Virus record (IMG/VR): IMGVR_UViG_3300037585_005926
Location: 1-64,000 of that record
DNA: 64,000 nt
Strand: one strand, 5' to 3'
Source: a virus
Shown here: piece by piece, positions 17,585 to 23,059 of the stretch
How positions within the stretch are numbered: the first letter of the stretch is position 1
How the letters are laid out: each line of letters starts with the position of its first letter
Made by a program: the position numbers and the translations under genes
Notes under the pieces: generated by a model
Database searches by the model: none
What the model was told of the DNA's origin: nothing
What the model saw: the letters and a program-made list of their open reading frames with translations, nothing else

Positions 17585-19773
17585 TGGGCGGTGTAGCTGG
17601 ACATATGGCACACTTATCTGAGGATACTGATTTAACCTTTAACGAGATTGTCAGTATCCTCAGTCAGGTTGCTAATGCAGAAATTACAAATGCTACCGAA
17701 AAAGTCGATGGTCAGAATTTATTCTTAACTGTTGATTCAGCCGGAGAGATAAAGACCGCGCGGAATAGTGGAGATATTAAGAAGGGTGGGATGACCACTG
17801 ACGAATATATCAGCAAGTGGGCCGGCCACCCAGCAGAGAATGCCTTTACAAACGGTTTTAAAGCCGTCTCAGCGGCTTTGCGCAAGCTTAGCCCAGAAGA
17901 CCTAGAGGCTATCTTTGCAGACGGCCAGAGGTACGTTAATATGGAAATAATGTACCCTAACAATCCTAACATTATTTTATATTCCTCGCCCAACATCGTC
18001 TTGCATGGATTGCAATATTTTGGAAGTGAAGAAGAGTCTCCAGAAATGAGACAAATAACTAAACAGAAATTTATTAAACTAGATAATCTTATTGATGGAG
18101 CTTCCGAAAAAGTCGGAGAAGAAGAGTGGGCTGTAAATGGCCCTAAGCTTGTTGCTCTCAAGAATATTGCTGATGGTTCTGCGCTAGAAGATGTGACAAC
18201 AAAGATTGAATCATTTGCTGCACCTGTTGGCATGGAAGCCACTTTGGGCGATTATATAGAACAAGTAGTCAGAGGTTATGGCGAGCAAGTAGGCTTGCCG
18301 TCTGATATCACGGACAAATTGGTCCTGTTGATGTTGAATCCTGAAGAGGCCAAGGAGCGTGGAATTAATGTGGTTGGTCTCAAAAAAGGTCTCCCGAAAG
18401 AACTGCAGGCTACAGTTTCAAATCTTGGTTCCAAAACTAAATCTAGAAAATACATAGCCGGTGTTTTAAAGCCTCTTGAGGTTGCTATTAGCGACTTTGC
18501 CATCGAAGTACTTCGTGGAGTAAAGAGTTACTTTGTCAGCGACAATGACCAAGAGGTTGCGCGCATGAGAGCCGAACTAGAACAGTCGATTGCTTATCTT
18601 AAAAATCTTCAAGCATCTGGCGATGAAAAGATGGGCGCACTTATTGATGTTCAGTTGGCGAAACTGGGAGATATTGAAAATCTCGCTTCTTCTATGGAAG
18701 GGGTGGTATTTGAATATCCACCGGGTTCTGATAAGATTTATAAATTGACTGGTGCTTTTGCCATGGCCAATCAAATCATCGGTCGCGCGAGGCGCTCTGG
18801 GATGACTGAAGACGAAGAAGAGATAGAGTTAGATATTGTAGACGATGAATCGGATGATCCTGTAGTGGATGCCGGCTATCCCAAGACTGTAGCCATTGTT
18901 CCGGGCGCATTTAAGCCACCTCACAAGGGGCATCTAGATATGGTACGAAAGTACGCTAGTAAGGCAGATGAAGTAATCGTGTTAGTTTCTGTACCATTAA
19001 ATAACAGCCGGACTCTCCCAAATGGAAAACCAATATCTACTGATGATTCTTTACAAATTTGGAATTTATTAGCACAAGATCTTGGAAATGTCAAAATCGG
19101 ATTATACGATGACTCTGCTGTTCGTTCACCGATTAGTGCAGCATATGCAATTGCGGGATCGCCAAGTGAAAGAGAGGCGGCTTCTACAAAAGTCGAACCC
19201 AGCATATCGCCCATTCGCCCGGGGAGCAAGATTATTCTTGGTGCCAGCACTAAGGACGGTGATGCAGGGCGTTGGAAAGGGGCCGAAAAATATGTTGGTG
19301 GTGGTGAAGCCGGAGATCTTGAATTATTAAGTCCAGAAGAAACCGCGGTTGAACCATCGCAACACTCTGGGGGATATATGAAGTTATTAGCAGTGGAGGC
19401 TGAAAAAGGCTCTGACTTATATAACAATATGCCAAGCGTGAAGAAGGGGAAACCTCCCGGCCAATTCCACGCTAGTGATTTTAGATTCGTATTGGTAGAG
19501 GCCACTAAGAGCGATGTAGCTCGTAAAATGTTAGAAGACTTTGTTGGCGGAGAAAATGTCGACGCTGTATTAGGTATACTTGGTATTGGTGCTGTAGAAG
19601 AAACATCCGCTATGGGTGGTGGCGCTGTGGGAGGGTTCTCGGGCCCTTTGGGATTTACGTCGGGTAAAAAGCGCGAGAAAGCGCAGCAAGACACAATTAT
19701 CAGACAAGAAAATATTGATTTAAATATCGTTGATGAGGTTTTAAGACTAATTAGTGAAAGAGGCATTGTATAA
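17584..19773 (+). CDS. ligase-like nucleotidyltransferase fused to cytidylyltransferase (DUF6267-like)
   Basis: Product of 729 aa beginning MGGVAGHMAHLSED, a start I recognise from DUF6267 proteins of T4-like marine phages. The N-terminal ~400 residues carry motifs like those of covalent nucleotidyltransferases (RNA/DNA ligases): EKVDG (Lys40) as motif I, VNMEIMYP like motif III, EGVVFEY (about 371-377) like motif IV, and IYKLTG like motif V. Residues from about 436 contain VPGAFKPPHKGHLDMV, the HxGH signature of cytidylyltransferase-type enzymes. So one polypeptide joins two nucleotidyl-transfer folds. The biochemical role is unknown. Confidence 0.7.
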   Translation: MGGVAGHMAHLSEDTDLTFNEIVSILSQVANAEITNATEKVDGQNLFLTVDSAGEIKTARNSGDIKKGGMTTDEYISKWAGHPAENAFTNGFKAVSAALRKLSPEDLEAIFADGQRYVNMEIMYPNNPNIILYSSPNIVLHGLQYFGSEEESPEMRQITKQKFIKLDNLIDGASEKVGEEEWAVNGPKLVALKNIADGSALEDVTTKIESFAAPVGMEATLGDYIEQVVRGYGEQVGLPSDITDKLVLLMLNPEEAKERGINVVGLKKGLPKELQATVSNLGSKTKSRKYIAGVLKPLEVAISDFAIEVLRGVKSYFVSDNDQEVARMRAELEQSIAYLKNLQASGDEKMGALIDVQLAKLGDIENLASSMEGVVFEYPPGSDKIYKLTGAFAMANQIIGRARRSGMTEDEEEIELDIVDDESDDPVVDAGYPKTVAIVPGAFKPPHKGHLDMVRKYASKADEVIVLVSVPLNNSRTLPNGKPISTDDSLQIWNLLAQDLGNVKIGLYDDSAVRSPISAAYAIAGSPSEREAASTKVEPSISPIRPGSKIILGASTKDGDAGRWKGAEKYVGGGEAGDLELLSPEETAVEPSQHSGGYMKLLAVEAEKGSDLYNNMPSVKKGKPPGQFHASDFRFVLVEATKSDVARKMLEDFVGGENVDAVLGILGIGAVEETSAMGGGAVGGFSGPLGFTSGKKREKAQQDTIIRQENIDLNIVDEVLRLISERGIV

Positions 19774-20528
19774 TGAACCAAGAAGAGAAAGTTCTCAGAG
19801 AGAACATAAGACGTTTGATAAGACACGTCAAGCAAAAAAAGCTAAATGAAGAAAATGATTTAAGAGTTGTCATCCAACAGATGATGGACCTAGAATTAAG
19901 TGAAGGCCAAACTCCAGATGTAGATCCTGCTCCTAATAAATCGACCGGCATCAACGTTTTAGAAGAACTCCTTAAGAAGATTATACCAATTATTGAGACA
20001 GATTACAAGTCTTTGACAACAAATTCTGATCAAAGACAGTCTTATCGCGCGCATGTATTGAATGCTGTTGATAATTCTCTGACACCTGCAAGAATAAATA
20101 ATCAAGCTGGTGAGGCCGCTGAGGCTTCAATAGAAGAGATAGAGATCAATGTTGGCGGTAATGAGCCAGACGATAAGTTTATTGATATTAGGACTGATGC
20201 AGAAAAAGCATCCGAAGAGCCTGAAGAAGAAGATCCTCTTGATGGATTCGGTACCGGTGTTGAAGGCGATGAAACTGGTCGCAATATGGCTTATCAAAGT
20301 TACAAGAAAATTGAAACTTCTATTCTTGATTCTTATGAATTGCTGTCGGACCCTGAAGATCAAGAACTGTTTTATGATTACCTTATCGCAAATTTAAAAC
20401 TTTACTTTGAGAAGTTTGAAGAAGAACTGGCGAACCAAGTCGAAGAGCCCACAAATCAGGCTTACGACATGGCCAAGCAAAGTCAGGGTGGTGATCCTGG
20501 CGAAGAAGATATCGAACTGGAGTTATAA
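19773..20528 (+). CDS. acidic hypothetical protein, probably virion-associated
   Basis: Product of 251 aa. The N-terminus (VLRENIRRLIRHVKQKKLNE) is a basic amphipathic helix; the rest is acidic and helical, with a low-complexity stretch (KASEEPEEEDPLDGFG). It is co-translated with the flanking genes (ATAATG overlaps at both ends). No known domain. Confidence 0.5.
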   Translation: MNQEEKVLRENIRRLIRHVKQKKLNEENDLRVVIQQMMDLELSEGQTPDVDPAPNKSTGINVLEELLKKIIPIIETDYKSLTTNSDQRQSYRAHVLNAVDNSLTPARINNQAGEAAEASIEEIEINVGGNEPDDKFIDIRTDAEKASEEPEEEDPLDGFGTGVEGDETGRNMAYQSYKKIETSILDSYELLSDPEDQELFYDYLIANLKLYFEKFEEELANQVEEPTNQAYDMAKQSQGGDPGEEDIELEL

Positions 20529-20803: not shown

Positions 20804-20851
20804 GACAATGTGTTCTGCTTGATAGTATGATAGAATTGCTTGATTGAATTA

Positions 20852-21208
20852 ATGAAAGAACAAACAAAGAATATTACAACTAGATCTAAAAGTATTATAA
20901 AATTACTTAAAGAACAAAATAAATTAAATGATCAAGCGCTAGTATCAATCAACAGTCTAACACTTGAAGATCTAATAGCAGTTAAGTTTGAATTAGCATC
21001 CAGGCACCTTAATAATAGGTTATATGGATTTGATATCTGGAGAGGTTTACCTAATATAATCAAGGAGGCTTCTCTCAAATTTGCTATTTCAGCTACCAAC
21101 TCAAAGATAGATGCGGCCAGATTTTTGGGATTAACGTATTTAGAATTTCTAAATATAAGTAAGAAGTTTCAAATTAATGATTTCTTCGATAATTCAAAAA
21201 CAAGGTAA
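20852..21208 (+). CDS. Fis-type HTH DNA-binding protein
   Basis: About 118 aa. The C-terminal half contains SATNSKIDAARFLGLTYLEF then LNISKKFQI, matching the Fis-like helix-turn-helix pattern (T-x-N-K-x-x-A-A-x-x-L-G-I-x-x-x-x-F/L). The N-terminal half is a charged helix. ATG 20852 is chosen; TTG 20840 is in frame upstream. It has its own strong promoter, as expected for a regulator. Confidence 0.6.
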   Translation: MKEQTKNITTRSKSIIKLLKEQNKLNDQALVSINSLTLEDLIAVKFELASRHLNNRLYGFDIWRGLPNIIKEASLKFAISATNSKIDAARFLGLTYLEFLNISKKFQINDFFDNSKTR

Positions 21209-21215
21209 CACTAAA

Positions 21216-21794
21216 ATGATATATTTATTACTTCTCTTGGCATGCGGTGCTGATTTAAAGGTGGGGGACCATGATATTGATCCCGAACTTATAGAAGAAG
21301 AGGTACCTCCGCTGGGTATTTCTGTAGATGATGACTGTAGCCAAGAAGCAATTGGTGAAAAAGCATGTAACATCGTACTACTTGATCAAAATAGTGAAGT
21401 TTGGCAGCTATATAAACAAGAAGATAAGGTGGTAGTATTAGATTTTAGTACCAGTTGGTGTCCACCTTGCCAAGCCGCCGGCTACAAGACACAATCCTTG
21501 CAGGATGAGTACAATGGTGAGGTTGTTGTGACCACCATATTGATTGATGGATATGAAGCCGGTATACCAGCAACCAGCACTGATGTTGAAGAGTGGGCTG
21601 ACACTCACAATATTACTTCTGCTCCAGTGCTTCAAGGCTCGCGAGAAATGATGTTTGACAGTCAGGGAATTAATGGTTATGCTATAGGAGCATTCCCTAC
21701 CTATATTTATCTAGATCGTGATGGTTTAATATACCTAGGACATTCAGGGTATAGCGAAGAATACGTCAAACAAACTATCGAGGAAATATTATAA
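21216..21794 (+). CDS. TlpA/thioredoxin-like lipoprotein
   Basis: Product of 192 aa from ATG 21216. MIYLLLLLAC gives a lipobox with Cys10. The thioredoxin fold carries WCPPC (81-85) in VVVLDFSTSWCPPC and the later cis-Pro region GAFPTYIYLD. This would be a membrane-anchored periplasmic thiol-disulfide oxidoreductase, rare in phages. An in-frame start at 21177 would hide the lipobox and is rejected. An AAGG site is present. Confidence 0.8.
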   Translation: MIYLLLLLACGADLKVGDHDIDPELIEEEVPPLGISVDDDCSQEAIGEKACNIVLLDQNSEVWQLYKQEDKVVVLDFSTSWCPPCQAAGYKTQSLQDEYNGEVVVTTILIDGYEAGIPATSTDVEEWADTHNITSAPVLQGSREMMFDSQGINGYAIGAFPTYIYLDRDGLIYLGHSGYSEEYVKQTIEEIL

Positions 21795-22030
21795 TGTGGA
21801 GAGTATACAAGTGGAATGGTCATTATATCATGGGTGACTTAATCAGTAAGCACTCATCTGAGTCTGCGGCCATGCGTGCTGCAACCAAGAATATTAATTT
21901 TGCAAGTACAGAAAAACACAAAAGCAAAACAGAAATTACCATATGGCTTGATAATGAAAACCACACTCCAGTTGGGGTTATAATAAAGAAACAAAGAAAA
22001 AAAGGGGATGCCACGGCTTCGACAGAGTAA
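21794..22030 (+). CDS. small hypothetical protein overlapping the tmRNA gene
   Basis: Product of 78 aa: WRVYKWNGHYIMGDLISKHS, AAMRAATKNINFAST, TEITIWLDNENHTPVGVII. A regular alpha/beta pattern and a GAGG site support it. Its last nine codons lie inside the 5' end of the tmRNA gene (22004 onward), so the two must be expressed in ways that tolerate the overlap. Function unknown. Confidence 0.5.
   Translation: MWRVYKWNGHYIMGDLISKHSSESAAMRAATKNINFASTEKHKSKTEITIWLDNENHTPVGVIIKKQRKKGDATASTE
21979..21984 (+). promoter_or_regulatory. possible -10 element for tmRNA
   Basis: Consensus TATAAT 20 bp before the mature tmRNA 5' end, inside the upstream gene. No good -35 at the right distance is seen, so this is tentative. 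Confidence 0.3.
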
Positions 22031-22339
22031 GAAAGAAAAATAGTGCAAGCAGGTAAGATACAACCTCAATCGTTCAAAAACAATAATTGCTAATAACAAT
22101 AACCACTTCGAATCTGTCCGCTTAGCGGCTTAATCGGGAGGCCGATTAGAGCCTTCTTTCCAATCTAATCAAACAACAGATAAGTTGCGAAAATCAAAAC
22201 CATCTATCGCCACAAGACGGTAAGCGATAGATTATAGCCGTCTACCCATTCAGTTAGGGGATATAAAAACTGATAAGCTTGTGAATGACTACAATTGGAC
22301 TTATTCTGGACGCGGGTTCGACTCCCGCCGTCTCCACCA
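22004..22339 (+). ncRNA. ssrA: tmRNA (transfer-messenger RNA), one-piece
   Basis: 336 nt. The 5' end GGGGATGCCACGGCTTCGAC pairs with the 3' end CGTCTCC to form a 7-bp acceptor stem (two wobble pairs), and CCA is encoded. The 3' part has a standard T arm (GCGGG-TTCGACT-CCCGC). The tag frame runs 22089-22130 with TAA at 22131 and encodes ANNNNHFESVRLAA, ending LAA like typical degradation tags. A hairpin (AATCGG-GAGG-CCGATT) starts within the stop codon. It would rescue stalled ribosomes and mark nascent proteins for proteolysis. A complete phage-encoded ssrA is unusual. Confidence 0.93.
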
Positions 22340-22570: not shown

Positions 22571-23059
22571 ATGAAGATATCGATAGCATTTTATAAAGGT
22601 AAAGGCGGCCGTCTTCATAACATCATAAGATGGTGGACTAAAAGCATATACAGTCATGCAGAGTTAATACTACCAGACCAAACTTGGATCAGCATCAGCC
22701 CACTCTATAACTCTAAAATAGAAAGTAAAAGAAAGTTATTAGTAGATAACCTACAGTGGGATTTTGTGCCCTTAGATATTGATAGTGAACAGTTGCAGAC
22801 AATATTAGACTTTTTTAAAGAGACAGAGGGGTGTGGTTATGACTGGGTAGGCATGCTGCTTTCTCAATTTCTACCCTTCCATATAAAGAGAAAAGGAAAA
22901 TGGTACTGTAGTGAGTGGATAGCATATGCCCTCAGGATTGCGTGCGTTGTTGACTGGAAGATTATTAAAATCTATGACAGAGCAGATTTATCGCCGGGCG
23001 TTCTACATAACATTGTCGAGAAAGTAAACAGTGATAAAGCTAAGAAAATACAAAGTTGA
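22571..23059 (+). CDS. permuted papain-like (YiiX/NlpC-P60-type) hydrolase
   Basis: Product of 162 aa. An early His in IYSHAELILPD and a late Cys in KGKWYCSEWIAYAL are in the reversed order typical of permuted NlpC/P60-like enzymes such as YiiX/YebB; GYDWVGML lies between. Such proteins are amidases or peptidases, often acting on cell-wall or lipid-linked substrates. No signal peptide. The preceding AAATAAATAC could be a T4-type late promoter. The next gene's start overlaps its end. Confidence 0.65.
   Translation: MKISIAFYKGKGGRLHNIIRWWTKSIYSHAELILPDQTWISISPLYNSKIESKRKLLVDNLQWDFVPLDIDSEQLQTILDFFKETEGCGYDWVGMLLSQFLPFHIKRKGKWYCSEWIAYALRIACVVDWKIIKIYDRADLSPGVLHNIVEKVNSDKAKKIQS

Follow-up and report, generated by a model that had tools for sequence, protein, structure and literature searches.

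The window, by which we mean the whole 64,000-nucleotide stretch analysed here, belongs to a 77,655-bp IMG/VR virus record and carries the sole tmRNA of that record. ARAGORN reports a one-piece tmRNA (ssrA) exactly at positions 22004-22339 of the plus strand, 336 nt long with an encoded CCA, a coding part at nucleotides 86-130 and the tag ANNNNHFESVRLAA. A sequence-only reading had proposed a complete phage tmRNA with acceptor stem, T arm, CCA end and tag frame, and had asked for a covariance-model search. The RF00023 model matches the same interval from end to end (model positions 1-374, E 3.5e-44) with 114.9 bits, the gathering score being 47, and thus bears the proposal out together with ARAGORN. 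The gene is complete and not a fragment.

The acceptor stem pairs GGGGAUG (22004-22010), which includes G3 of the G3-U70 alanine identity pair, with CGUCUCC, which together with the terminal ACCA occupies positions 22329-22339, and all seven pairs form. Helix P2, as drawn from the window and the alignment (5' strand 22023-22031, partner 22300-22308), forms nine pairs out of nine, and the T arm GCGGG-UUCGACU-CCCGC (22312-22328) five out of five. The resume codon GCT opens the tag frame ANNNNHFESVRLAA, which closes on a TAA stop (22089-22133). Among the pseudoknots, PK1 (22051-22066) is present through its stem 1 (22051-22054 with 22063-22066), PK2 (22139-22170) through both AGGC/GCCU and GAUUAGA/UCUAAUC, PK3 (22202-22242) through both AUCUAUCGC/GCGAUAGAU and GACGG/CCGUC, and PK4 (22251-22272) through the single stem CAGUU/AACUG. 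All these features, and genes B-E and ORF X described below, lie on the plus strand.

Genomic setting of the tmRNA

The neighbours of the tmRNA match phage families, namely PhoH, an exonuclease, an HNH nuclease, a baseplate hub and a late sigma factor. Upstream are gene B (19773-20528), a conserved syntenic marker followed by homology search, gene C (20840-21208), a conserved marker defined by gene-order comparison, and gene D (21177-21794), a thioredoxin-like ORF of the lipoprotein type according to its protein match. Downstream come gene E (22571-23059), also a conserved marker from gene-order comparison, and three tRNAs found by ARAGORN at 25.4-26.2 kb. The order A-B-C-D-tmRNA-E-F-G-H-I-K is maintained over many contigs, and a search with gene B found 15 viral records, all 15 of which contain a tmRNA. 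The tmRNA is therefore phage-borne, as first read, being placed among phage genes and syntenic throughout a phage clade. Neither gene B nor ORF X, the reading frame just upstream of the tmRNA, has a match in 50,697 phage records, and the clade is, judging by its sequences, a family of uncultured phages.

The surroundings hold other genes of note. A eukaryotic-type phosphomannomutase (PF03332, 23293-24084) and a UvdE UV endonuclease (PF03851, 26614-27594) are encoded near the tmRNA. Farther on, positions 31700-53100 are filled by a long run of glycosyltransferase, nucleotide-sugar, TPP-enzyme, ketopantoate hydroxymethyltransferase, dehydroquinate synthase-like and aminotransferase genes, a sugar-metabolism run of a kind unusual for a phage.

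Integrases often use ssrA as an attachment site, and ssrA attachment sites were observed in actinophages, which could suggest that the ssrA was acquired from a host during integration, or else that the contig is an assembly chimera. Such an origin is hardly credible here and is already contradicted: the gene is complete, no integrase was matched among the window proteins searched, the tmRNA occupies the same place between the same phage genes in contigs that number in the dozens and are independent of one another, and it has homology to tmRNAs of other phages. That phages carry tmRNAs is indeed already known, and 22004-22339 is of the known kind. Those of mycobacteriophages Bxz1 and Wildcat, phage G, Streptomyces BE phages and huge phages are likewise complete one-piece ssrA genes (PMC4131195, PMC5764925, PMC7162821), whose tags end in LAA or similar and whose phages rarely or never encode SmpB. 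In contrast with these, the clade of the window has no cultured member in the 50,697 phage records, and its syntenic tmRNA is linked to an ORF X whose stop codon falls within the RNA. The two-piece tmRNA of Melnitz is comparable, being the ssrA of a marine phage with a supposed role in infection, but it is permuted, of the alphaproteobacterial type, and associated with a glutamine riboswitch (PMC9004378).

Two side observations concern other phage tmRNAs. Several one-piece phage tmRNAs (L259-L264, L046, L298) combine a GGCAGUA T loop with an AUAG-UUUCGAC D loop, both otherwise characteristic of alphaproteobacterial two-piece tmRNAs. The T loop, non-canonical and present in some relatives, was considered as a novelty and rejected, as it is of this alphaproteobacterial type, here borne by one-piece molecules; the T loop of L252/L254 and L239/L240 is UUCAACU instead. 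Permuted tmRNAs not annotated as such were also found in Ruegeria phage RpAliso, Synechococcus phages S-CAM1 and S-CRM01, and Stenotrophomonas phage QDWS359, in which a long spacer separates the pieces (L389, L390, L391, L399).

Conservation of the fold and of the tag

Twenty-nine syntenic phage tmRNAs were aligned, and their pairing was evaluated with the structure of the window's tmRNA as the reference. Paired cells amount to 90.9%, as compared with 31-44% in slid controls, and 35 pairs are altered on both sides, so that the tmRNA of the window is not a chance match. The covariation score of 0.359 exceeds that of shuffled alignments (0.161) and of slid controls (<0.09), and G3-U70 is kept in all 29. 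Covariation backs PK1 stem 1, PK2, PK3 and one PK4 stem, PK2 having 100% of its cells paired and compensatory changes, while PK1 stem 2 is weak.

The tags of the 29 relatives comprise 15 different peptides with the common core A-N-N-N-x-[HN]-F-[ED], and end in LAA in all but one, which ends in LTA. In the first eight tag codons, 81% of the single-base differences are synonymous, for 14.5% expected at random; many of the counted pairs compare related sequences and cannot be taken as separate events, yet the difference is wide. These codon comparisons point to strong purifying selection on the tag peptide, and the synonymous excess indicates that the tag is most likely translated. The tag ending in LAA that had been read from the window alone thus holds up as a selected peptide, and it fits a degron of the ClpXP type. 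The takeover of ribosome rescue and the non-host character of the tag, also suggested in that reading, are conjectural.

SmpB (PF01668) was found in none of 20 related or tmRNA-bearing viral records, most of which, G000 among them, may be incomplete, whereas 10 bacterial control genomes were positive; the phage tmRNA therefore presumably relies on host SmpB. One narrow pattern, made of the tag and its upstream context, returned no tmRNA in 84,980 bacterial and archaeal species, and would not detect the tmRNA of a host that uses different codons or has GTTGC as the context. Its single match, in Pontibacter, was rejected as ssrA since it sits within a protein gene.

ORF X ends inside the tmRNA

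The most unusual feature of the locus is a protein gene that ends inside the tmRNA. ORF X (21794-22030; 78 codons, 78 aa) encodes a small basic protein; its ATG overlaps the TAA stop of gene D, and its own TAA (22028-22030) lies within the tmRNA, with which it shares 27 nt (22004-22030). This left edge of the tmRNA is the new part of the locus, and makes of a phage tmRNA an unusual, testable variant. X is a real protein gene, as indicated by codon comparison and structure modelling: among 27 different homologous sequences, 12 columns are invariant and 70% of the single-base differences are synonymous, for 19% expected, and the predicted structure is a β-β-α-β-β-β fold with a mean pLDDT of 85.8 and a loose C-terminal tail. 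The residues encoded by the tmRNA correspond to this loose end, and the conserved body of X ends with GVI[IV]KKxR/K right at the tmRNA edge, whatever the frame. Searches of Pfam, PHROGs and the PDB by sequence and fold returned nothing reliable for X, and no similarity to ArfA, BrfA or SmpB, which leaves a rescue role unsupported by homology. A resemblance to DUF2188 was considered and was not supported.

In the set assembled from the tmRNA, the stop codon of X falls within the tmRNA in 29 cases out of 30, at offsets of 8, 10, 13 or 14, 27 and 40-41 nt and in several reading frames. About nine frame changes of the stop are counted on a gene B tree of 26 rows, several of whose forks lack resolution, and the overlap is retained in nearly all rows. 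As an independent check, homologues of X were sought with the protein sequence only, which gave 80 loci, 60 of them unique. X lies directly upstream of a tmRNA 5' end in 56 of these 60, and one of the four loci without a tmRNA behind X runs off its contig. The linkage between X and the tmRNA is thus close to complete. Within the 56 loci, X stops inside the tmRNA in 47 and 0-61 nt before it in the other 9, so that the overlap is not indispensable: it is the rule, not a law.

The 5' end of a tmRNA is generated by RNase P. Since the stop codon of X lies beyond that end, maturation of the tmRNA should render the X mRNA non-stop, an outcome expected from sequence in the window and at the 47 overlapping loci. 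From these elements we infer how the tmRNA may be expressed, processed and served by host factors, and how a feedback on X could arise. Expressed during infection, the tmRNA would be trimmed by host RNase P, with a cut expected before 22004, and charged through G3-U70 by the host alanyl-tRNA synthetase. Host SmpB and EF-Tu would bind it, allowing entry into ribosomes stalled without a stop codon, where it would append alanine and ANNNNHFESVRLAA to the growing peptide. The ribosome would thereby be released, and the peptide targeted to proteases of the ClpXP type. An X transcript that reaches its stop would necessarily include the tmRNA 5' end, and the cut at 22004 would strip the 27-nt overlap, leaving exactly 70 whole codons and no stop. 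Such a message should be an ideal substrate for trans-translation: X would be tagged and destroyed when rescue capacity is ample, and would accumulate when rescue is short or overloaded. The locus thus probably holds a working one-piece phage tmRNA that forms a unit with X, its built-in trans-translation client. The non-stop message would on this reading be used for control, while a role of X as a rescue factor itself is conjecture.

The main rival explanation is compaction without regulation: the tmRNA is functional, X has lost its stop codon and uses the first one available, and the non-stop mRNA is an unimportant by-product. Overlapping genes are frequent in phages. X also starts within the stop codon of gene D, the 9 genes that stop 0-61 nt ahead of the tmRNA do so with a stop of their own, and at the tmRNA 5' end each of the frames meets a stop in the first 41 nt; with the A-rich end of X beside this stop-rich 5' end, an overlap is easily reached by compaction. 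However, when a gene overlaps an RNA gene, processing of the RNA abolishes the message, which does not happen where two coding genes overlap. Such an overlap is also rare in bacteria, a survey having counted 250 upstream same-strand cases among 115,660 bacterial tRNA and tmRNA genes (PMC4131195), and yet it is the rule here and has survived repeated frame changes, with X tied to the tmRNA at 56 of 60 loci. Compaction is a serious possibility all the same, to which we give a little less than an even chance.

X as a client of the adjoining tmRNA can be compared with two known systems. The overlap of smpB and ssrA was described as occurring "nowhere else but in Carsonella", where the same non-stop logic was proposed and called not widespread (PMC4131195). 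There too, the upstream protein gene ends in ssrA and maturation should yield a non-stop mRNA, but the protein is SmpB and the arrangement is found in half the strains of one reduced symbiont (PMC4131195), whereas the phage X is an unrelated small protein, and its overlap extends to the majority of a broad clade and to several frames. The arfA gene of E. coli likewise encodes a small basic protein from a non-stop mRNA held down by trans-translation (PMC3989581), the repression that should also apply to X. In contrast with X, arfA does not adjoin ssrA, and its message undergoes RNase III cleavage or early termination (PMC3989581); X, for its part, matches no known protein in sequence or fold and is not known to act in rescue.

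Tag-less tmRNAs in the same slot

In a sister clade represented by G029 (193,778 bp) and by contigs L122, L193, L214 and L217, genes B and C lead into an 82-nt RNA in place of X and a full tmRNA. This RNA is the complete tRNA-like domain alone, devoid of tag and pseudoknots, and occupies the orthologous slot (L045 1501-1582, minus strand; L193 1365-1446; L214 9154-9235; L217 2411-2492; L122 46-127, minus strand). The contigs bearing it group together in the gene B tree (support 99/94), which is unrooted as to whether the full or the tag-less form is ancestral. X has no credible match in the sister-clade contigs, and no full tmRNA was found in G029, G058 or G059.

Similar minimal RNAs are common in viral contigs. 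A scan of these returned at least 91 unique sequences in many unrelated contigs and one isolate (L115-L234, with L045 and L386). Among the matches listed, G3-U70 is present in 90 of 91, although the scan did not demand it, and the first seven P2 pairs are formed in 92.8% of cases, as compared with 51.4% with shuffled partners. They enclose a small inner hairpin, e.g. CCGCACGCGG. ARAGORN does not report them, but the mini-tmRNA alone exceeds the RF00023 cut-off at 9 of 10 scanned loci, none annotated as a tmRNA. The cut-off is likewise exceeded by the mini-tmRNA alone in phage isolates, also without tmRNA annotation, namely Stenotrophomonas phage Jojan60 (L386), Streptomyces phages pSt2308 (L395), BRock (L397) and LuckySocke (L398), and Pontimonas phage phiPsal1 (L396), in which the RNA sits between the prohead protease and the major capsid protein. 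Many DNA matches to the mini-tmRNA in actinophages were rejected, since they proved to be permuted tmRNAs or attachment sites in ssrA next to an integrase.

The tag-less tmRNA of mycobacteriophage DS6A and those of some mitochondria and plastids (PMC11915505) similarly consist of the tRNA-like domain alone, as do the sister-clade RNA and at least 90 other unique viral sequences. DS6A is the one phage that the 2025 tmRNA database paper names for the tag-less form, which it states to inhibit E. coli tmRNA (PMC11915505). The RNAs described here differ in their position, orthologous to that of a full tmRNA, and in their spread over many unrelated phages; the window itself has none. Given this 82-nt domain in the same slot and the inhibition reported for DS6A (PMC11915505; PMC4131195), the RNA of the window might itself act mainly as a decoy, sequestering SmpB, alanyl-tRNA synthetase or EF-Tu and thereby blocking host trans-translation. 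A decoy would need neither tag nor pseudoknots, and the conservation of both by selection makes this improbable.

The preferred reading, a working tmRNA with X as its client, may be extended to the sister clade, if only speculatively. X and the tmRNA would then form a self-regulating viral rescue module, X released under overload would act as a back-up rescue factor or a host-translation factor, and the sister clade would have swapped the module for a tag-less tmRNA decoy; we regard this as possible but rather doubtful.

Phage tmRNAs are usually just listed, and here one is tied to a partner gene, found almost only before the tmRNA and usually unable to terminate translation once the tmRNA is cut free. 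The pair offers a concrete, testable message that would be made non-stop by RNA maturation, a situation reported for ssrA so far only in Carsonella, and provides a lead on what phages may gain from trans-translation. With the tag-less domain in the same slot of a related clade, and its common unannotated counterparts elsewhere, rescue and inhibition may represent two uses of one gene.
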